DNA of 64,000 bases from an uncultured Gellertiella sp. Its GTDB lineage: Bacteria; Pseudomonadota; Alphaproteobacteria; Rhizobiales; Rhizobiaceae. A model generated the notes under the pieces. The model searched no databases. It was not told the DNA's origin and worked only from the letters and a program-made list of their open reading frames with translations. Of the stretch, positions 55,748 to 64,000 are shown in pieces. The position numbers and the translations under genes were made by a program. Each line of letters opens with the position of its first letter. Position 1 is the first letter of the stretch. The stretch covers positions 2,386,001-2,450,000 of the forward strand of contig NZ_OY735139.1 in the NCBI RefSeq assembly GCF_963457605.1, read 5' to 3'.

Positions 55748-55776
55748 AAAAGAGCCCGGACGAACCGGGCTCTTTT
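55748..55776 (+). terminator. Intrinsic terminator after the hydrolase gene
   Basis: AAAAGAGCCCGG (55748-55759), loop ACGAA, CCGGGCTCTTTT (55765-55776): a 12 bp perfect stem with A-run and T-run, able to work in both directions. Confidence 0.88.
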
Positions 55777-55818: not shown

Positions 55819-55836
55819 TGGTGCCCAGAAGAGGAC
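55819..55836. repeat. Prophage left attachment site (tRNA 3' end fragment)
   Basis: TGGTGCCCAGAAGAGGAC is the complement of a tRNA 3' end: two bases of T-loop, T-stem CCTCT, acceptor strand TCTGGGC, discriminator A and CCA. The form fits tRNA-Leu. The rest of the tRNA does not follow; instead phage DNA begins at once. It therefore marks the left junction of the prophage, and the intact tRNA is expected at the right junction outside the window. Confidence 0.75.
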
Positions 55837-56012
55837 ACCAACCCGTGGTCCCTATGATGTTGTTTTTATTGCAAATCAAGCGGGCAGTGTAAAGTTTTCA
55901 CCGTACACAAACTGCGTAGGTCTCAAGGGGACATTTCTGCCTCTAGATTAATGCTCCAAGCTCGTTAAGCTTAGAGTGAATAGCTTGATGAACACCACCA
56001 TAGACACCTAAG

Positions 56013-56191
56013 TGTTGACATTTCGGAGACAGGAAGTGTTGACACATGTCTGACAGAAATGTTGACACACACGGGGGATAGGTAATGTTGACATTAAGCA
56101 GACAGGTGAATCGTAGGATGGATAGAAATGTTGACATTTCGCTGGTTATAATCGGTGTCAACAATTAGGTAGGCAGAATCAAATGTTGACA
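56013..56191. repeat. Seven-copy TGTTGACA motif array at the prophage left end
   Basis: TGTTGACA occurs at 56013, 56037, 56060, 56086, 56129 and 56184, and inverted (TGTCAACA) at 56156. The first four are 23-26 bp apart, and several are preceded by GA(C/T)AG and AAT. The first gene's ATG lies in the last copy. The spacing of about two helical turns suggests a repressor operator or origin iteron array. A TATAAT (56147-56152) sits between copies. Confidence 0.65.
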
Positions 56192-56374
56192 CGACTGGGT
56201 ATCACTAAAAAATATACGATACGAAACAGCAACTTCGATAGCATGGAGCTGCTGAAGGTGTTTGTGAGCGTTGACGTAGAAGCCGGGTGCGTGGTACGCC
56301 ATGAGGTAAGGAGAGATCGTACTACAGGTCTAACCTTGGTGAAGAAGACACCCATCACCTCAGAACAGCACTAG
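56183..56374 (+). CDS. Small phage protein, 63 residues
   Basis: Starts MLTRLGITKKYTIRNSN. The later part, MELLKVFVSVDVEAGCVVRHEVRRDRTTG, could be the true protein with a start at 56243. There is no recognisable domain. The upstream start lies within the TGTTGACA array, so its expression may be controlled by whatever binds there. Function unknown; it occupies the position of the earliest phage gene. Confidence 0.45.
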   Translation: MLTRLGITKKYTIRNSNFDSMELLKVFVSVDVEAGCVVRHEVRRDRTTGLTLVKKTPITSEQH

Positions 56375-56385
56375 GAAAGAGCTTC

Positions 56386-56790
56386 ATGGCCAAAACAGAC
56401 AGCAAGCAGACTGCATGGGAGTTTACGGAAGACTTCGATGTCAGTGTTGCACCACCGGAAGGCCCCACTCGGGCACCCCGCCGCTTCGAAATGCCCTTTG
56501 CACCCAAGCTCTTCACGCCAGCCTTGCCACTCGCGCTTGAGGGGAAGAAGCCCCACAAGTTTGTCCCGAAGTCCTTCTTTGTGGGACGCTCGGAGAAGCC
56601 CGAGCAGGTTGACGTGAAGTACATGCGCCAGAAGATCAGAGCGCAGTGGAACAAGTGGCTGAAGCTTCAGTCCAAGGAAGCCCAGGAGCAGCTAACCCTC
56701 CTGATAATCCCTAGGGACGGCAAGCAGACTGACTTTCCAGAGGAGGGGGTCTCCATCTGGATCATGAAGGCGGAAAAGACCAACAAGTAG
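56386..56790 (+). CDS. Early phage protein of unknown function
   Basis: A 134-residue protein starting MAKTDSKQTAWEFTEDFD, Pro-rich in the first half and basic in the middle (KYMRQKIRAQWNKWLKLQSKEAQEQ), with a strand-rich end. GGAAAGAG precedes the ATG. It lies between the repeat array and the RNA polymerase gene, where T7-like phages keep host-takeover genes. No family recognised. Confidence 0.6.
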   Translation: MAKTDSKQTAWEFTEDFDVSVAPPEGPTRAPRRFEMPFAPKLFTPALPLALEGKKPHKFVPKSFFVGRSEKPEQVDVKYMRQKIRAQWNKWLKLQSKEAQEQLTLLIIPRDGKQTDFPEEGVSIWIMKAEKTNK

Positions 56791-56958
56791 GGCACCGAGC
56801 CCACTGGGTGCCAGATACGGGGAGCGGCGCGGCTAGCGCCTTTCCCCAACCGCATGCAGTTCTCTGTGGAAAAGTGGAACATAAAGAGAACAAGTAAGAT
56901 TGCTTTCCTATAAAAATGTAGGACTATATCCCTACTGAGTTCGGGACGAGGAATGGTA

Positions 56959-59706
56959 ATGACAAGCAGGGACGAACGGACAGCCATATTGGAACGCCAC
57001 AACGACGACTACGAGACGATTGGAATCAATGAGAACTGGCAGCATGGCGATAATCCGCAAAGCCACCCCATGTGGGAGGAACAGCTCCGCTTGGAAGAGG
57101 GCATGATGCGCCGGGGTGCGGACAGACTACGTGATCAGGTTGTTGTGGCATCGGCACGTGGCACGATGACAGACATAGCGCCTGTCCGTGGCTTGATGAC
57201 CGACTGGGTGCCGGGCATTGCGGAAAACATTAAGGAATGGTGCAAGGTGTGGGACCGGAAGCGTGGAGTGAAGCCCGCCATCCTCCCACTAATGAGGACC
57301 ATTGACCCCTACATGGCCGCTCTGGTGGGCATCCGGCAAATTCTTAATTGGATTGGCCACTATCAGAGCGACGTGCCAAAAAACACGGTGCAAAACATCG
57401 CCGTGGAGATAGGCCGGACAATTGAGTATGAGCTAAGGGTGCGGGCTTGGGCGAACGGCTCAAAGGACGACAAAGCGCTATGGAAGGCTCAACAGGCCCA
57501 ATTCCGCCGCGAGAAGAGCACAGGTGTCCACCAGCGCCGCACCAACGTGAACCGCTTCAACCACCACCTTACGGATGGCACCTTTGAACAGGTCTCGTGG
57601 GATGACTGGACGCAGGACCAGATTTTCCGTGTAGGATGGGAAGTGATGGACGCCGTTGTGCGCCAGACGGGATGGTTTGAGCTAATCCCTGATCCCAACC
57701 ACGTCTACCGGAAGGGCAGCAAAAAGGGTCCTCGGCTTCTGCTGGTTCCAAAAGCGGGCCTTACCGATTGGCTCACGAAGGCCTTAGATCACGCTGAGGT
57801 AAGCATGCCCGACTACCACCCATGCGTCATGCCACCCCGCCCCTGGACCGACAACAAGAATGGCGGGTACTGGACGCCCTACGTGAAGCCGCGCTACCTA
57901 ATCCGCTTTAAGGCCTCCACGGGCTCACAGAAGGTCTTGGCGTCTGATGAGTATGACGCTATCGACATGCCACGTGTATACGCCGCTGTGAATGCCCTGC
58001 AAGACACCGCTTACCGCATCAACAGGCCCGTGCTCGACGTGTTCTCAAAGGTATGGACTGAGCTTCGCTGGGCGAGAGATGAGGCTTACCTCCCGGAGCT
58101 TGACGAAAGGCCCCTGCCACCCCGTACGCCCCGCATGATGCAGCATCGCGAGACAAACCGGGGGAAAGGCAGGAACGATAGGTCTGCCCCTGATGAAGAG
58201 ACCGCGCAAGAAATCTTTGAGTGGAAGCGAAAGGCTAGCCCAGTGCATGCCTTCAACGCGAAGCGGGCAGCGAGGGCGATTGGGGCCTCGGCCACCTTGC
58301 GGCTGGCAACAGCGTTTGCTGACTATGAGGCTATCTACTTCCCTCACACCGTTGATTTTCGGGGGCGGTACTACCCGATGCCTTCCTACTTACAGCCTCA
58401 GGGCACAGACCTTGCGCGGGGCCTGCTGACATACGCTACCGAAGCTGAGCTTACAGAGCGGGGTGTGTGGTGGCTTGCGGTGTGCCTTGCATCCAACTGG
58501 GGCAACGACAAGTGGAGCTTTGAGGAGCGGGTGAAGTGGGTCTATGAGAATGACGCCATGCTGCGTCAGATTGCAAAGGACCCTTATACCAATAAAGAGT
58601 GGTTCACAGCCGACAAGCCATGGCAGGTACTCGCATGCATTTTCGAGTGGAACGCCTACCGAGAAGCCAACGAGCGGGGCGAGAAGTTCTATAGCTCTTT
58701 GCCGGGCATGGTGGATGGAACGTGCAACGGCATCCAGCACCTCTCCGCGATTATCCGCGATGAAGTGGCCGGTGAGTACGTTAACCTGACCCCCGGCGAA
58801 AAGCCGCGTGACATCTACAAGTTCATCGCTGATGCCCTACAAGTCGAGCTTGAGGCTATTGAGCAGGCAGGCGGAGAACACGCACAGGTGGCCGCATGGT
58901 GGCTTGAGTTCTGTGGGCGAGATATGCCCCGGTCCCTGACAAAGAGGCAGGTGATGGTATTGCCATACGGCGGCACGCGGCAGAGCTTCTTCGACTACAC
59001 ACGTGCGTGGCTTAACAAGCACGATCCGGCTGGAGATAATCTGTCTGATGCTGAGCGGGAGGCCCGTTCGAGCAGAGTCAGCTTGGTGGTCAACCTGTTG
59101 TGGGACATCGTTAAGGAGAAGATCAAGGCCGCGTCCACCGTCATGACGTGGCTACAGGACTCGGCTCGAATAGCGTGCGAATCGAACCAACCGATTTTCT
59201 GGACAACCCCCTGTGGCTTTGTCGTCCGCCACTTCTACGGCACTATGGTGAGCAAACGGGTAGACCTGTTTCTGGATGGTCAACGCTGCGACGTGTCGCT
59301 GGGCGAGCGCACGGCAGACCTAAGCGTGCAAGATCAGCTAAGGGGCATCGCTCCTAACTTCACGCACTCCTTGGATGCCTCCGCATTTACAGACTGCGTA
59401 AACCTCTGTCTGGAGGATGGCATACGTGCAATCTCTGGGGTTCATGATGCGTATGGGACGCACATGGCTAACATGGACGTGCTTGCCCGGAATGCCCGCC
59501 TTGCATTTGTGATGACCCATGAAGTTGACGTGCTGGCTAACTTTCGTGAAGCAGTGCATGAGGTGATGATCCCCTACTTAATGCACTCCAAAGGCACTGA
59601 TGTGCACGAGGCTTATGAGCGGCTGGAGCGAGCCCTACCGCCTGCACTCTCGATAGGGAGCCTAGATTTGCGAGGTGTGCTGGACTCCCCCTACTTCTTC
59701 CACTAA
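56959..59706 (+). CDS. Single-subunit T7-like phage RNA polymerase
   Basis: A 915-residue DNA-directed RNA polymerase, close to T7 (883). Seen in order: the motif VDFRGRYYPMPSY, palm motif A VDGTCNGIQHLSA (catalytic Asp, T7 D537), motif B KRQVMVLPYGG (Lys and Tyr of T7 K631/Y639), PNFTHSLDASAF, and motif C GVHDAYGTH (catalytic Asp, T7 D812). It ends SPYFFH, matching the aromatic C terminus of T7 polymerase. GAGGA is 6 bases before the second ATG (56959) and too near the first (56953). It transcribes the middle and late phage genes from its own promoters. Confidence 0.95.
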   Translation: MTSRDERTAILERHNDDYETIGINENWQHGDNPQSHPMWEEQLRLEEGMMRRGADRLRDQVVVASARGTMTDIAPVRGLMTDWVPGIAENIKEWCKVWDRKRGVKPAILPLMRTIDPYMAALVGIRQILNWIGHYQSDVPKNTVQNIAVEIGRTIEYELRVRAWANGSKDDKALWKAQQAQFRREKSTGVHQRRTNVNRFNHHLTDGTFEQVSWDDWTQDQIFRVGWEVMDAVVRQTGWFELIPDPNHVYRKGSKKGPRLLLVPKAGLTDWLTKALDHAEVSMPDYHPCVMPPRPWTDNKNGGYWTPYVKPRYLIRFKASTGSQKVLASDEYDAIDMPRVYAAVNALQDTAYRINRPVLDVFSKVWTELRWARDEAYLPELDERPLPPRTPRMMQHRETNRGKGRNDRSAPDEETAQEIFEWKRKASPVHAFNAKRAARAIGASATLRLATAFADYEAIYFPHTVDFRGRYYPMPSYLQPQGTDLARGLLTYATEAELTERGVWWLAVCLASNWGNDKWSFEERVKWVYENDAMLRQIAKDPYTNKEWFTADKPWQVLACIFEWNAYREANERGEKFYSSLPGMVDGTCNGIQHLSAIIRDEVAGEYVNLTPGEKPRDIYKFIADALQVELEAIEQAGGEHAQVAAWWLEFCGRDMPRSLTKRQVMVLPYGGTRQSFFDYTRAWLNKHDPAGDNLSDAEREARSSRVSLVVNLLWDIVKEKIKAASTVMTWLQDSARIACESNQPIFWTTPCGFVVRHFYGTMVSKRVDLFLDGQRCDVSLGERTADLSVQDQLRGIAPNFTHSLDASAFTDCVNLCLEDGIRAISGVHDAYGTHMANMDVLARNARLAFVMTHEVDVLANFREAVHEVMIPYLMHSKGTDVHEAYERLERALPPALSIGSLDLRGVLDSPYFFH

Positions 59707-59717
59707 GCGCCCCAACC

Positions 59718-59745
59718 CTAATTCCCGCCGTCACGATAAAGGAGC
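59718..59745 (+). promoter_or_regulatory. Probable phage RNA polymerase promoter 1
   Basis: A 28 bp sequence (CTAATTCCCGC, C, GTCACGATAAAGGAGC) 12 bp after the polymerase gene. It recurs at 59844-59871 with one change. The TCAC..TAAAGG core resembles T3/T7-class promoters, and the position just after gene 1 is where T7 has its first own promoters. Initiation is expected near GGAG. Confidence 0.65.
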
Positions 59746-59768
59746 TCGCCCCACAAGGCGGGCTTCTT
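59744..59768 (+). terminator. Terminator after the phage RNA polymerase gene
   Basis: GCTCGCC (59744-59750) pairs with GGCGGGC (59757-59763), including one G-T pair, followed by TTCTT. It would stop host-polymerase transcripts from the early region. For transcripts from the overlapping phage promoter it would form a hairpin right at the 5' end. Confidence 0.55.
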
Positions 59769-59843
59769 GCTTTCCAGGCCCCAAACCCCGGAGGTGCTCC
59801 CATGCTCAAGGTTCTCTAAAACCCAGCATTTCTAGGCTTTCGG

Positions 59844-59871
59844 CTAATTCCCGCTGTCACGATAAAGGAGC
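59844..59871 (+). promoter_or_regulatory. Probable phage RNA polymerase promoter 2
   Basis: Second copy of the 28 bp element, differing from the first by a single C-to-T change (CTAATTCCCGC, T, GTCACGATAAAGGAGC). It lies 57 bp before the next gene and reads towards the SSB and endonuclease genes. A weaker relative, CCGCTATGACGAAAGGA, lies at 60932-60948 before the SSB gene. Confidence 0.65.
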
Positions 59872-59927
59872 GCCCCTCGGCCCTCCTTCATGTTTCCCCA
59901 CCATGCCACAGCAAGGAGCTTCAGCCC

Positions 59928-60284
59928 ATGAGCCAACCCCTTAAGACGATCATACGAATGGGCGCTGCCCACTGTGACCTCCACATGGTGGGCATCCCCG
60001 GTGGTGCTCCGCCCCTTACGCTTGACCTTTCGAAGGCAAGCCGCCGCGACAAGAGCCAGATCGGCCACCACCTGTGTGCCGCCTACGGCATCGCCACCGA
60101 GACCACTCCCTCCAAGAAGGACAAACCGCGCCATGGCAAGCACAAGCCACGAAACCGGCCTGCCGGACAGCTACCTCACGCCGCACCCGCTGGACAAACT
60201 CCGGCTGACAATGGTGCCCCGAAGCGAAGCCGCCGACGCCGCGCACCTCGCCCTGTTTCAGCTTCAGGACCTTCCCCGCACTGA
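59928..60284 (+). CDS. Small phage protein overlapping the next gene
   Basis: A 118-residue frame starting MSQPLKTIIRMGAAHCDLHMVG, with AAGGAG 10 bases upstream. The first 60 residues look like a genuine small basic protein (LTLDLSKASRRDKSQIGHHLCAAYGI). The last 50 are Arg/Pro-rich and overlap the following gene out of frame by 152 bp, so that part may be an extension past a lost stop codon. Function unknown. Confidence 0.5.
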   Translation: MSQPLKTIIRMGAAHCDLHMVGIPGGAPPLTLDLSKASRRDKSQIGHHLCAAYGIATETTPSKKDKPRHGKHKPRNRPAGQLPHAAPAGQTPADNGAPKRSRRRRAPRPVSASGPSPH

Positions 60285-60483
60285 GACCCAGGTCCTCGGG
60301 GTGGCCGTCCTGTTTTCCGCCATGGCCAAGCGCTGTGGTCTGGACCCCGAGGAGCTCTACCGGATGGGCATGATGGTCCTCCGTGAGCGAACGGACGGTG
60401 ACGTGCGTACAGGCAACAACCTTCAGGCTCTCCGTGACTATTGCGGCATCCGCATCATGGGCGAGCAGACAACCTTCTACTGA
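60133..60483 (+). CDS. Phage protein of unknown function, 116 residues
   Basis: Starts MASTSHETGLPDSYLTPHPL; AAGGAC lies about 10 bases upstream. The helical core TETQVLGVAVLFSAMAKRCGLDPEELYRMGMMVLRERTDGD and the end NNLQALRDYCGIRIMGEQ look like the small conserved proteins found between the polymerase and SSB genes of T7-like phages. No function is known. Confidence 0.65.
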   Translation: MASTSHETGLPDSYLTPHPLDKLRLTMVPRSEAADAAHLALFQLQDLPRTETQVLGVAVLFSAMAKRCGLDPEELYRMGMMVLRERTDGDVRTGNNLQALRDYCGIRIMGEQTTFY

Positions 60484-60498
60484 TCGGAGCACAATCTC

Positions 60499-60792
60499 AT
60501 GAAGTACAATCGTCTCGGCCTTGGTGCCGTCCTCGCTACGTCTGCTGCCCTCCTCTCTGGCTTCATCGGGCAGGTGGGGTCTCTGTCTGACACTCTCGCC
60601 TCCATGCCCATCCTCAAGCGGGGCTACCGGGCAAAGCTGGATGCAGGCATGAAGGCCTCTTCCCGCCGCAAGAAGACTGGCGTGGAGTACCCCTTCAGCA
60701 GCAAGGGCCAGCAGGAACGCAATGCCCGGCAACTCGCCGCTGGCAAGCTGGACTTCTCGGCCTCTCGGTTCCACCGGCTGGGCGCTGCGTGA
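60499..60792 (+). CDS. Phage protein of unknown function, 97 residues
   Basis: Starts MKYNRLGLGAVLATSAALLSGFIG, a hydrophobic stretch of about 20 residues that could be a membrane anchor, followed by a basic, Ser/Lys/Arg-rich part (KASSRRKKTGVEYPFSSKGQQERNARQ). GGAGC precedes it. Its stop shares a base with the next small gene. Confidence 0.55.
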   Translation: MKYNRLGLGAVLATSAALLSGFIGQVGSLSDTLASMPILKRGYRAKLDAGMKASSRRKKTGVEYPFSSKGQQERNARQLAAGKLDFSASRFHRLGAA

Positions 60793-60884
60793 TGGAGTTT
60801 CTCCGCATTCTCGTGGGGTCTTTCGTGGGAGGCTTCCTCGTGGGGGCCGTACTGACAGCCCTCGTGCAGCACTTCATCCACTGA
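60792..60884 (+). CDS. 30-residue single-span membrane peptide
   Basis: The peptide MEFLRILVGSFVGGFLVGAV continues to a total of 30 residues and is almost wholly hydrophobic, with GxxxG-type glycines, ending HFIH. Its ATG overlaps the TGA of the preceding gene by one base, which argues for translational coupling. Such peptides occur among the small genes of T7-like phages; role unknown. Confidence 0.5.
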   Translation: MEFLRILVGSFVGGFLVGAVLTALVQHFIH

Positions 60885-60894
60885 CTGCTTACCG

Positions 60895-60921
60895 TACCCA
60901 GTGCCAACCGCTGGGTATTTC
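60895..60921 (+). terminator. Stem-loop before the SSB gene
   Basis: TACCCAG (60895-60901) pairs with CTGGGTA (60911-60917), followed by TTTCT. It separates the small early genes from the SSB operon, just ahead of a weakly promoter-like sequence. Confidence 0.5.
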
Positions 60922-60960
60922 TAAACAGCCACCGCTATGACGAAAGGATTTCACAGCACA

Positions 60961-61613
60961 TGGCAAATCAATATCAGGATAGCCCGTTTGGCGTCGGCAA
61001 GTACCTGCACGTCAACAAGGCTGACCGGGGCGTTCCCGGCAAGTTTGAGTCCGCGCCTACCTTCAAGGTGGACCTCTCGCTCTTCGGTGAGGAAGCCCTT
61101 GAGCTGAAGGGTCTGGTGGACGAACGGGCGGAAGCTGCCCATGAGGCCTTCAAGGAAACCGATCAGTTCGCCAAGATGAAGCCGAAGGACCAGCGTGAGC
61201 TTGGCGTCTACTACCCCTACGAGGAGGTTGAGGACGACAACGGTGACAAGACCGGCGAAATCATCTTCCACTTCCGGCAGAACGAGAAGATCAAGCTGAA
61301 GGACGGCACCTTCAAGACGATCAAGATGGGCATCTACGACGCGGCAGGCAAGGAGTTCAACAAGCTGGTAACCTCCGGCTCTGAGCTGCGTGTCCGTTTC
61401 TCCACCCGCCCCATCATGGCACCGTCCACCCCCAAGAAGTACGGCGTTCGGCTGGACTTCATGGGCATCCAGGTCCGCAAGCTGCGTGAGCGTGGTGGTT
61501 CCGGTGGTGGCTTCGGCGCTGTGGACGGCTACGTGGATGACGGTGTGGCAGGCTACGAGGACAACTCTGAGGCCCGCGACAACACGCCCTCCAGCGATGA
61601 TGCGGACTACTAA
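60961..61613 (+). CDS. T7 gp2.5-like single-stranded DNA-binding protein
   Basis: A 217-residue SSB. FGVGKYLHVNKADRGVPGKFESAPTFKVDLSL at the N terminus and the OB-fold core are typical of the gp2.5 group. The C terminus is strongly acidic and ends SSDDADY, the acidic tail with terminal aromatic residue through which gp2.5 contacts the phage polymerase and helicase. It lies between the RNA polymerase and endonuclease I, as in T7. Confidence 0.88.
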
Positions 61614-61615
61614 GC

Positions 61616-61918
61616 ATGCGGACCCTCCCAGTCCAGGCGCACGCAGCGCCCTACACTGAGAAAGCCGCAAGCGCCAGCGCCATCCAGCTCTTCCCCGATG
61701 CCCCACCCATGAGCCCGATCCTTGGCCGGACCATCTGGAACGACTCCGCGGCAGTCCTTGCGATCCGCTTTGGGCCACCCAGCGAGCTCACAGCCGGGAA
61801 CGTCAACGCCATGATTGCGGCAGGGGGCTACTATGAGCTGCCCTTCGGCTACGTCGGGGAGGTCTCCGGCAAGTGGGCATCGGCCAACGGCTACGCCCGC
61901 CTCTCGGATATCGTCTGA
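61616..61918 (+). CDS. Phage protein of unknown function, 100 residues
   Basis: Starts MRTLPVQAHAAPYTEK two bases after the SSB stop. The core RTIWNDSAAVLAIRFGPPSELTAGNVNAMIAAGGYYELPFGYVGEVSGKWASANGYARLS looks like a small beta-rich fold, perhaps a virion decoration or tail component. A later start at 61709 is possible. It is coupled to the next gene by a one-base overlap. Confidence 0.55.
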   Translation: MRTLPVQAHAAPYTEKAASASAIQLFPDAPPMSPILGRTIWNDSAAVLAIRFGPPSELTAGNVNAMIAAGGYYELPFGYVGEVSGKWASANGYARLSDIV

Positions 61919-62079
61919 TGGCGAACTACGATCCGCTGACAGGAGGGGGCATCTCCATGGCCCCCATCCGGCTCACCGAGCAGTCCAGCGTGCGGCACGA
62001 TGAGCCTGTAGCCGCGCCTGAAGTGAAGACCCCCAAGGCTCCGGCCAAGCGCAAGGCCACCAAGGAGGTGTCGGAATGA
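61918..62079 (+). CDS. Small phage protein, 53 residues
   Basis: Starts MANYDPLTGGGISMAPIRLT and ends in a Lys/Pro-rich tail (VKTPKAPAKRKATKEVSE). Its start overlaps the preceding stop by one base and its own TGA overlaps the next ATG by 4 bases (62076-62079). The low-complexity basic tail suggests nucleic-acid or protein contact. Function unknown. Confidence 0.5.
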   Translation: MANYDPLTGGGISMAPIRLTEQSSVRHDEPVAAPEVKTPKAPAKRKATKEVSE

Positions 62080-62822
62080 TGCCTCTCTGGGACGGCCCAT
62101 TCGGCTGGAAGGGTAATATCGTGGGGGCAGGGCATACGGTTTTCCCCGGTGGTGGCCAAGCCTCGTCTAACCTCGGGCCGGGCTCGGGTGGTGGAGGCCC
62201 AACGCCTGTAAGCATCGCGGGCTCACCAAGCTCTGGCGTTGTTGGCGTTCCGTATAGCTGGGCTCCCACGGTGTCTGGCGGCTCCGGCACAAAGAGCTTC
62301 TCGCTCTCGGGGTCTCTCCCCTCCGGCCTCTCCTTCAGCTCCACCACAGGGGCCATCAACGACCCAGACGCGGGCTCTTTCACCCTCACGCAGGCTTGGT
62401 GGGAGCAGACCACCACGACATCCTACAAGCTGGATGCTCCGGTGGTCCGGCCTGTGGCTGAGAACACCAGCGCGATCTACCGCCATGACTGCCTCCTGCT
62501 GCACCAAGTCAACTTCCAGGCACCGGCAGGCTACAACTCGGCGGATGGCTACGCGGTCAACAAGCCGAAGCGCCTCCAAGGGAAGAATACGTCCTACATC
62601 TCGACTGGCCCCGGTCCACTCGCCCACTTTGATGGGTCTGTGGCAGCGAACAACAATGCAGGCGTAGCGGATGGCAATGCGGACGACCGCTTGCAGTCCT
62701 TCAGCTTCGGCACCTACGGCTTCAAGGGGACCCGTGTGGCCTTCGCCTCCAAGGCAAACGGTAACCTCACGCAGACCCAGATGGAGGAAGTAGCTATCAA
62801 CATGTACAAGCTGGTGGCTTAA
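62076..62822 (+). CDS. Phage protein with putative Ig-like (He_PIG) domain
   Basis: A 248-residue protein. After a Gly-rich N terminus, VSIAGSPSSGVVGVPYSWAPTVSGGSGTKSFSLSGSLPSGLSFSSTTGAI matches the He_PIG-type Ig-like repeat of phage and surface proteins (GVPYS, LPSGL, TTG). The second half is strand-rich (YGFKGTRVAFASKANG). It could be a virion decoration or adhesin, an odd position among replication genes. It overlaps both neighbours by 1-4 bases. Confidence 0.65.
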   Translation: MMPLWDGPFGWKGNIVGAGHTVFPGGGQASSNLGPGSGGGGPTPVSIAGSPSSGVVGVPYSWAPTVSGGSGTKSFSLSGSLPSGLSFSSTTGAINDPDAGSFTLTQAWWEQTTTTSYKLDAPVVRPVAENTSAIYRHDCLLLHQVNFQAPAGYNSADGYAVNKPKRLQGKNTSYISTGPGPLAHFDGSVAANNNAGVADGNADDRLQSFSFGTYGFKGTRVAFASKANGNLTQTQMEEVAINMYKLVA

Positions 62823-63325
62823 TGCCAGCACCCTCACGCACACCTCCAAGCAGAGCAGCAAGGGCGGAGGCGCGGGGTCTTCAGTATGGCTATAGGTCCG
62901 GCCTTGAAGGAAAACTTGGAGAGCAGATCAAGGCCCACGGCCAGCCGATCCTCTTCGAAACCTTCAAGGTCCCCTATGTCATCCCGGAGAGCCTGCACAA
63001 GTACACGCCTGACTTCCTGCTGGACAACGGCATCATCATTGAGGGCAAGGGGATATTCGATGCGCAAGACCGCGCCAAGCATCTCCTCATCAAGGGCCAG
63101 CACCCGGAGCTAGACATTCGGTTCGTCTTCTCGCGGAGCGCAGCGCCTATCACCAAGGGAAGCAAGACCACCCTGGCTGACTGGTGCCGCAAGTACGGCT
63201 TCAAGTTTGCCGACAAGCTCATCCCTGAAGGGTGGTTTCACGAGGAGGGTCCAGCCCGAGACCCCCGAGAAGTCATCCAGTTTGCCCCGTCCCTCGGGCC
63301 TCTGAAGCGGAAGGCCAAGGCATGA
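62822..63325 (+). CDS. T7 endonuclease I homologue (gp3-like)
   Basis: A 167-residue Holliday-junction and branched-DNA resolvase. All catalytic residues of T7 endonuclease I are present: Glu in YRSGLEGKL (T7 E20), Asp in YTPDFLL (D55), and Glu and Lys in IIEGKG (E65, K67). HLLIKGQHPELDIRFVFS and KFADKLIPEGW also match closely. In T7 it breaks down host DNA and resolves replication intermediates. It is 18 residues longer than T7 gp3 (149), by extensions at both ends. Its TGA overlaps the next ATG. Confidence 0.93.
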   Translation: MPAPSRTPPSRAARAEARGLQYGYRSGLEGKLGEQIKAHGQPILFETFKVPYVIPESLHKYTPDFLLDNGIIIEGKGIFDAQDRAKHLLIKGQHPELDIRFVFSRSAAPITKGSKTTLADWCRKYGFKFADKLIPEGWFHEEGPARDPREVIQFAPSLGPLKRKAKA

Positions 63326-63459
63326 AGACCGGCTTGCTGTTCCGCATCGGGAGCTTCTGGGTGGGGGCTCATTGGTCCCCCTACAACAAACGACTGTGTG
63401 TCAATTTCCTGCCATGCATCACATGGTGGGTCACACTCCCCGGAGGCAAATGCCCCTAA
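63322..63459 (+). CDS. Small phage protein, 45 residues
   Basis: Starts MKTGLLFRIGSFWVGAHWSP. It is aromatic-rich with a central hydrophobic segment (RLCVNFLPCITWWVTLPGG) and two Cys. Short proteins with the pattern GSFWVG.H.SPYN...W.TLPGG occur next to endonuclease or lysis genes in related podoviruses, as I recall. It overlaps the preceding gene by 4 bases and the next by 10. Function unknown. Confidence 0.6.
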   Translation: MKTGLLFRIGSFWVGAHWSPYNKRLCVNFLPCITWWVTLPGGKCP

Positions 63460-63671
63460 AGCTCAAGCACGACGCTTTTGAAATCTTCAAGAAGGCTTGG
63501 AGCGTCCGCTTCATGGTGCTCGCCTTCATCTTCATCGTCCTGGAAACCGCAATGCCCTTCCTTCAGGGCGTGCTCCCGGTGTCGGCCCCAGTGTTTGGGG
63601 TCTTGTCGGGCTTGATGGTAGCCGCCTCGTTCGTGGCTCGCTTCATCGCCCAGGAGAACCTACAAGGATAG
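63450..63671 (+). CDS. Candidate holin
   Basis: A 73-residue protein starting MPLKLKHDAFEIFKKAWSVR. It has two hydrophobic segments, about residues 21-39 (FMVLAFIFIVLETAMPFL) and 43-64 (VLPVSAPVFGVLSGLMVAASFV), a basic N terminus and a polar tail. Two membrane spans and its place just before a lysozyme gene fit a class II holin. A strong GGAGG site lies just before the ATG at 63450. Confidence 0.65.
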   Translation: MPLKLKHDAFEIFKKAWSVRFMVLAFIFIVLETAMPFLQGVLPVSAPVFGVLSGLMVAASFVARFIAQENLQG

Positions 63672-63681
63672 CCACAACAGA

Positions 63682-64000
63682 ATGTTCGGCTTCTTCAAAA
63701 AGGCTTCCGCCCCGGTGACCATCTCGGCTGCCGTGGCGCTAGCTATCACATCACTCATCATGCCAAGCGAGGGGTTATCCCTCCGCACGTATCGAGACCC
63801 CATCGGCATCCTCACATACTGCTTCGGCGAGACCGCTGGAGCTGTAGCCGGACGCACCTACACGATTGACGATTGCCGATCGATCCTTGATGCCCGCGTT
63901 AATTCGTTTGAGAAGAGCGTCCTTAGCTGCCTCCCGAATTACGCCAATCTTCCTGTCCCCGTTCAAGCTAGTGTCCTCTCTGTCTCCTACAATGTGGGCA
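63682..64000 (+). CDS. GH24 phage lysozyme (endolysin), 5' part
   Basis: The first 106 residues of a T4/lambdoid-type lysozyme that cleaves peptidoglycan glycan strands; the gene continues past the window edge. The N terminus MFGFFKKASAPVTISAAVALAITSLIM is a weakly hydrophobic signal-anchor, as in SAR endolysins. The catalytic set Glu-x8-Asp-x5-Thr is seen in SEGLSLRTYRDPIGILT. T7 itself has an amidase (gp3.5) at this place, so the lytic enzyme differs. Confidence 0.85.
   Translation, partial: MFGFFKKASAPVTISAAVALAITSLIMPSEGLSLRTYRDPIGILTYCFGETAGAVAGRTYTIDDCRSILDARVNSFEKSVLSCLPNYANLPVPVQASVLSVSYNVG

Follow-up and report, generated by a model that had tools for sequence, protein, structure and literature searches.

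How does a relative of T7, the textbook lytic phage whose best-known relatives only kill their hosts, come to lie inside a bacterial chromosome? The question is raised by a 64,000-nucleotide stretch, hereafter the window, from an uncultured Gellertiella sp. (GCF_963457605.1, contig NZ_OY735139.1, positions 2,386,001 to 2,450,000), in which an earlier note had recognized a T7-type phage genome integrated at a tRNA gene. The host genome comprises 4.17 Mb in two contigs, and the window corresponds to C2:2386001-2450000, C2 being the 3.95-Mb contig. The element runs beyond the window end and its remainder was taken from C2; positions without a prefix are those of the window. Based on our analysis, we propose that the element is very probably a complete, and probably functional, temperate T7-like (Autographiviridae-type) prophage, inserted site-specifically at the 3' end of a tRNA-Leu(CAG) gene.

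The borders of the element are marked by an 18-bp core, TGGTGCCCAGAAGAGGAC. An exact whole-genome search returned two + strand copies and no minus-strand copy, and the backwards control of the core returned none. The copy in the left attachment site (attL, 55819..55836) represents, read on the minus strand, the tRNA-Leu 3' end that integration would have left on the chromosome side. The identical copy in the right attachment site (attR, C2:2486945-2486962) lies 45 kb to the right and ends a complete tRNA-Leu(CAG) gene detected by ARAGORN at C2:2486945-2487031 on the minus strand. Identity between the copies ends after exactly 18 bases on the right and immediately on the left. From core to core the element occupies C2:2441819-2486962 (45,144 bp, 59.7% G+C), reaching from position 55819 to about 37 kb past the window end. 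ARAGORN gave the host gene as the sole tRNA-Leu in the 55-kb region, with no phage-borne replacement. The reading of 55819-55836 as a tRNA 3' end that joins phage to chromosome is confirmed by the complete tRNA that ends in the second copy, which the earlier note had proposed to look for.

Is the junction real? A chimera, assembled at 55836 from a free T7-like phage and the chromosome, was a legitimate concern as long as only the single junction within the window was visible. A second junction is now seen at an intact tRNA on the same 3.95-Mb contig, and exact 18-bp repeats at both ends are not expected from a chimera. Moreover, when four other genomes of the same genus were searched, relatives of both flanks were found in all four and the phage RNA polymerase in none. 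In one of them, G153, the terminal 90 bases of the left-flank query, a stretch that contains the core, match C1:161077-161164 with 77% identity, while the match of the tRNA and right flank begins at C1:161147; the overlap is exactly 18 bp, and a single alignment spans the core. Judged by these alignments, the G153 locus is an unoccupied integration site. Because flank and tRNA meet there at exactly the core, the junction does not appear to be chimeric, and we consider a chimera hardly credible. The case for integration at a tRNA gene is strengthened by the empty site.

Does the element encode a T7-like phage? On the + strand, a 1.1-kb leader separates attL from a gene for a 917-residue T7-type single-subunit RNA polymerase (56953..59706; PHROG 414, E 3.8e-209; Pfam RNA_pol, 7.8e-82). 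The protein aligns to T7 RNA polymerase (1aro) with E 2.2e-89 and keeps the motif blocks DGxCxGIQH, RSxTKRxVMxLxYG and HDxxGT, which we take to carry the catalytic residues. It is followed by a gp2.5-like single-stranded DNA-binding protein (60960..61613; PHROG 112, E 3.3e-16; Pfam SBB_T7, 2e-7), a protein with an immunoglobulin (Ig)-like domain, endonuclease I (T7 gene 3; 62822..63325; Pfam Phage_endo_I, 2.5e-56), a holin-like protein whose open reading frame (ORF) has an uncertain start (63372..63671, + strand; PHROG 1356, E 1e-5; DUF7940, 8.4e-12) and a GH24-type phage lysozyme of 162 residues (63682..64000, on to C2:2450170; Pfam Phage_lysozyme, 5.3e-30 for the full protein). Beyond it lie an amidase related to the gene 3.5-like one of Rhizobium phage Pasto, a winged-helix protein, primase-helicase, an HNH endonuclease and DNA polymerase; then a DNA methyltransferase, 5'-3' exonuclease, a DUF3310 protein, portal, a scaffold-like protein and the major capsid protein; and then tail proteins, internal virion proteins, tail fiber and large terminase. 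Small early-type ORFs, a conserved gene for a 208-residue protein and two tyrosine recombinase genes complete the element. PHROG and Pfam matches thus bear out the T7 order of polymerase, gp2.5-like protein and endonuclease I described from the window, and the DNA polymerase, capsid, terminase and tyrosine integrase to be sought to its right are all present, the last in duplicate. With its own single-subunit RNA polymerase and its replication and structural sets in T7 order on one strand, the element has the marks of a T7-like phage (Autographiviridae). It also has those of a temperate one, namely an integrase gene, insertion in a host tRNA gene with a known empty site, and a phage attachment site (attP) between the early region with the integrase and the RNA polymerase gene.

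An intact gene set suggests that the prophage may be inducible, as had been supposed from the window. Decay to a non-inducible remnant would be the alternative, and some genes leave room for it, full length being confirmed neither for the small early genes nor for the tail fiber and one of the internal virion proteins. In a comparison of 19 core genes, 17 matched the best relative along 75% or more of their length; the tail fiber (150 of 390 residues aligned) and that internal virion protein (521 of 805) fell short. That none of the 19 contains an internal stop is a consequence of choosing open frames. In addition, the att cores are identical and the catalytic residues are present in both recombinases. 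A decaying prophage is therefore improbable in our judgement.

Which recombinase integrates the phage? The first, of 297 residues, is encoded on the + strand at the usual position of a T7-type integrase (C2:2483907-2484800; Pfam 1.2e-14). The second, of 572 residues, lies on the minus strand (C2:2485154-2486872; Pfam 5.8e-5, below its cut-off), and its gene starts 72 bp from the right core. By eye, the catalytic residues read R-K-HxxR-H-Y in the 572-residue type and R-K-KxxR-H-Y in the 297-residue type. The 572-residue recombinase is most likely the integrase of this prophage, as its gene type adjoins the att site here and, tentatively, in a relative integrated elsewhere. The prophage of that relative, G143, is split over two contigs (C21, C22; L029-L032) and sits not in a tRNA, but between two genes that we take, from sequence and neighbourhood and without a family search, to be phaC-like and aatA-like. 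Both borders have an intergenic copy of a 10-bp repeat, TATTGACATA, and 55 bp separate it from the start of the 572-type ORF; the same stretches contain longer chance matches of up to 13 bp, and this core, picked by its place, is tentative. Compared with the Gellertiella prophage, G143 and also L019 have the 572-type gene in the opposite orientation and across the 208-residue gene, on its opposite side. If the G143 placement is right, the att site would tentatively follow the 572-type gene and not the 297-type gene in two prophages. The G143 contigs break within the polymerase gene, perhaps through an assembly limit or a mixed population.

The converse assignment, with the 297-residue enzyme integrating the phage and the larger one serving another role, draws on the classical position of the smaller gene and on its kinship to the integrases in G010, G136, G232, L018 and Pasto; the type is present also in L017 and G143. 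The enzymes of G010 and G136 are longer forms, however, and use the anticodon part of tRNA-Leu rather than its 3' end, and it is the 572-type gene that has its 5' end near the core here and, tentatively, in G143. An N-terminal stretch present in the enzymes of G010, G136 and Pasto is also missing from the 297-residue protein, an argument weakened by L018, which lacks that stretch as well and has no 572-type gene in the 19 kb read. On balance, we regard this assignment as unlikely. The 572-type gene is present in L017, L019 and G143 and in 69 of 397 genomes of the order, own genome included. Given this frequency, and given that the order-level lists for this gene and for the RNA polymerase have just the one genome in common, it looks like a widespread integrase that these phages have acquired. 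Among phage records, six match it weakly (24-35% identity), including vB_PaeM-G11, an inducible Autographiviridae phage of Pseudomonas (PMC10142737), and one matches the 297-type weakly.

What life cycle would such an arrangement support? In our model, recombination would take place between the 3' end of tRNA-Leu(CAG) and the identical 18-bp phage site, probably catalysed by the 572-residue recombinase, and the phage would provide a new 3' end so that the tRNA remains whole. In the prophage, 1.1 kb separate attL from the polymerase gene, and the early genes lie at the other end. The polymerase might be kept off by a protein bound to an array of short boxes, by the loss of upstream promoters on integration, or by both. 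Excision would make the early region and the polymerase gene adjacent again; by analogy with T7, the host RNA polymerase would then transcribe the phage polymerase gene, and the phage polymerase in turn the middle and late genes.

The array consists of seven TGTTGACA boxes at 56013..56191, six direct and one inverted (56156-56163), which we interpret as operators or integrase arm-type sites. The whole 45-kb element contains nine copies; of the two outside the array, about chance level, one precedes the first early ORF and one stands where the 208-residue gene begins. In 2000 shuffles of the 280-bp stretch holding the seven boxes the mean was 0.0085 and the maximum one copy, for a box chosen after reading the sequence. 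Two sigma-70-like promoter candidates on the + strand, each scoring 10/12, are interwoven with it: TAGAAA-18-TATAAT (56123..56152), directed toward the polymerase gene with its -10 between two boxes, and TTGACA-16-AAAAAT (56186..56213), with its -35 within a box. A further candidate, TTGACA-17-TAGCAT (C2:2486901-2486929, + strand), lies on the far side of attP and points across it at the polymerase gene. Sites of at least 10/12 number five on the + strand and none on the minus strand, a count made without shuffle control, and these three of the five flank attP and face the polymerase. At the 9/12 level, 2 sites were counted in the leader (shuffles, 0.7) and 3 at the right end (shuffles, 2.7); given these counts, single sites, C2:2486901-2486929 included, are weak evidence.

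The boxes may be arm-type sites of the 572-residue integrase and not repressor operators, a prediction to which we give appreciable weight, short of an even chance. L017 and G143, which have this integrase type, carry short boxes of their own: all three copies of TGYWACACA in the 16 kb of L017 fall in the likely att zone, the position of its core being unknown, and three of four copies of TGTCRTACA in G143 lie near the att site, both boxes having been picked after looking at the sequences. In addition, one TTGACA is found on the integrase side of the core, at C2:2486901. The array lies 177 to 355 bp from the core, which is far for arm-type sites, and overlaps both polymerase promoter candidates. 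G010 has a 16-bp sequence ending in TTTGACA once before its polymerase gene and once before its homologue of the 208-residue gene, as operators might be placed. Moreover, TGTTGACA was not found upstream of the longest ORF at 19 other loci with related integrases, a survey in which ORF identity was unchecked, three stretches were short and the far arm was left out.

Could integration itself be the off-switch? Dormancy would then need no classical repressor, the integrase module setting the switch. Since attP separates the early region from the polymerase gene, insertion puts the polymerase 45 kb from the early region and from the promoter candidate at C2:2486901-2486929, and excision would re-link the gene with both. 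Early genes and polymerase are at opposite ends in G000, G010, G136, G232 and, tentatively, G143, that is in five of the six genomes of the family search (G177 is not readable in this respect), and the circular record of the Rhizobium phage vB_RleA_TRX32-1 has its 12-bp core between the last gene and the polymerase. The exact place of attP and the integrase type differ among these five genomes and TRX32-1; most share the integrase position by descent, so the cases are not independent. Against integration as sole switch stand the two promoter candidates that stay on the polymerase side of attL and G143, where the recombinase and 208-residue genes are still joined to the polymerase gene. We therefore view this form of silencing as a speculative, rather doubtful option.

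Several observations weigh against our overall scheme of a temperate prophage inserted by the 572-residue enzyme. The gene left of attL has its counterpart on a different contig in all four same-genus genomes, so the left-side argument consists of 90 bp in G153 only, the other three being uninformative on the empty site. The choice of integrating recombinase is drawn from gene position. The TGTTGACA array was not seen ahead of the polymerase genes of L017, L018, L019, G143, G010 and G136, in most of which TGTTGACA or TTGACA was sought by pattern and in G010 TTTGACA; in the same regions no 8-base word occurs three times except, as other words, in L018 and L019. Furthermore, no recognizable repressor lies beside the integrase. 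The adjoining 208-residue protein has no Pfam or PHROG match, and the predicted model of its L017 relative is poor, with a mean predicted local distance difference test score of 41; it occupies the place directly before the integrase where Pasto and LUZ100 have a MarR-like helix-turn-helix gene, a kind not found at that place here. Six small ORFs from the interval between the terminase and integrase genes, which has at least one more (L005:5546-5851) outside the scan in its own frame, showed no helix-turn-helix family, nor did the two ORFs before the polymerase. The 99-residue winged-helix protein (C2:2451215-2451514) matches HTH_39, and MarR_2 at E 0.036 only.

How does the element relate to described phages? 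At a threshold of E 1e-20, 6 of 297 family genomes and 8 of 397 order genomes have the RNA polymerase, own genome included in both. Of 50,697 phage records, 2,576 match it, all below 60% identity, and the best of the 30 matches listed is Pseudomonas phage LUZ100 (32.5%). The nearest relative found, L017 (IMG/VR contig IMGVR_UViG_3300046507_000176), has a polymerase of 64% identity and shares the 208-residue protein, the 297-type and the inverted 572-type recombinase in the same order ahead of the polymerase. Unlike the Gellertiella prophage, it is metagenomic, known without integration context, and contains a single TGTTGACA in 16 kb, not before the polymerase gene. The core TGGTGCCCAGAAGAGGAC has no copy in L017, L018, L019 or Pasto.

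Temperate and inducible T7-like prophages in tRNA-Leu are already known: five were induced from R. leguminosarum, the vB_RleA_TRX32-1 family (Paadamvirus, Autographiviridae; MW023914), according to their description (PMC8631192). TRX32-1 resembles the present element in having its RNA polymerase just inside one end, a 337-residue gene annotated as hypothetical at the other, and attP between them; no gene is annotated as integrase in its record. Its family is reported to use a 12-bp core inside the tRNA and a phage tRNA-Leu that substitutes for the interrupted host gene (PMC8631192), whereas here the core is the tRNA 3' end and the host tRNA is restored. The genus requires above 70% average nucleotide identity to members, as stated there (PMC8631192); with polymerase proteins only 31.5% identical to that of TRX32-1, membership of this prophage is very unlikely. 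G010 (C10), which is in the host's family and is apparently the same contig as L008, and G136 (C3) have the host tRNA-Leu split in its anticodon part, with halves flanking the prophage (L020-L025, L037, L038) and a complete tRNA-Leu on the other strand of the phage. This is the arrangement published for the TRX32-1 family (PMC8631192), and is thus already known. G232 shows a repeat of the 5' half of tRNA-Cys. In G177 (C1; L026-L028) a T7-type polymerase gene directly follows an intact tRNA-Leu, with a terminase gene at a distance of just 13 kb; the element may be a shortened one.

Pasto (MT708545), described as a temperate T7-like phage (PMC10134795), shares the T7 gene order and many genes, and has an integrase and a tRNA-Leu upstream of the RNA polymerase. 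It differs in its polymerase (31-32% identical), in a helix-turn-helix gene directly before the integrase and in having one annotated integrase. LUZ100 (OP329100) is likewise T7-like with an integrase. Its authors report a MarR-like regulator and the integrase in one operon, obtained no stable lysogens, and put forward a scheme in which the MarR-like protein represses the polymerase gene and the first polymerase transcripts arise by read-through from the integrase operon; their section on read-through does not discuss the effect of integration on it (PMC10134795). The T7-like cyanophages S-TIP37 and P-SSP7 are reported to carry an integrase and an attP matching host tRNA-Leu genes, and S-TIP37 to integrate transiently without stable lysogens (PMC8776855); unlike it, the prophage described here resides in a sequenced genome. 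The earlier note was right that temperate T7-like phages exist, but these descriptions indicate that they are less rare than the 'few' it allowed (PMC10134795, PMC8631192, PMC10142737).

What is new, then, is the apparent exchange of integrase, the presence of two recombinases and an att site at the tRNA 3' end. No T7-like phage with two integrases turned up in a limited literature search, a result that speaks weakly for novelty. For the question of how temperate relatives of T7 silence an aggressive RNA polymerase, this prophage offers a complete example with resolved borders, far from described phages. A single strain would allow two models of silencing, repressor operators and integration as a switch, to be tested. 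The prophage is also a further caution against taking a T7-like gene order as proof that a phage is strictly lytic.

Some further features deserve mention. The leader encodes a 63-residue ORF (56183..56374, + strand) that has no Pfam family and has relatives ahead of the polymerase gene in G143, L017 and L019, and a conserved 134-residue protein (56386..56790, + strand; 54% identity to L017, 36% to G143 and L019) with no Pfam or PHROG family and an uninformative predicted fold. Two candidate phage promoters lie after the polymerase gene on the + strand, CTAATTCCCGCCGTCACGATAAAGGAG (59718..59744) and CTAATTCCCGCTGTCACGATAAAGGAG (59844..59870); the former matches perfectly the 27-base consensus built from both. 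A search for further copies gave a site just after the terminase gene (C2:2480334) with nine mismatches, no better than shuffles. A hairpin with a T run (55749-55775) adjoins attL on the left; it was found by eye, is absent from the terminator-scan list, and lies within the stretch matching the G153 empty site. A similar copy is located at C2:1210808. The hairpin next to attL may protect the prophage from host transcription. The Ig-like protein between gp2.5 and endonuclease I (62076-62822; He_PIG, below the Pfam cut-off) is an unusual location for a structural-type domain, and the HNH gene immediately after the primase-helicase (L003:12771-13256) perhaps encodes a homing endonuclease. Finally, a stretch after the terminase gene (L005:3430-4200) contains many short CATAGCATACAGC-like repeats and a 36-nt inverted repeat, 78% complementary, and is possibly a packaging end region.

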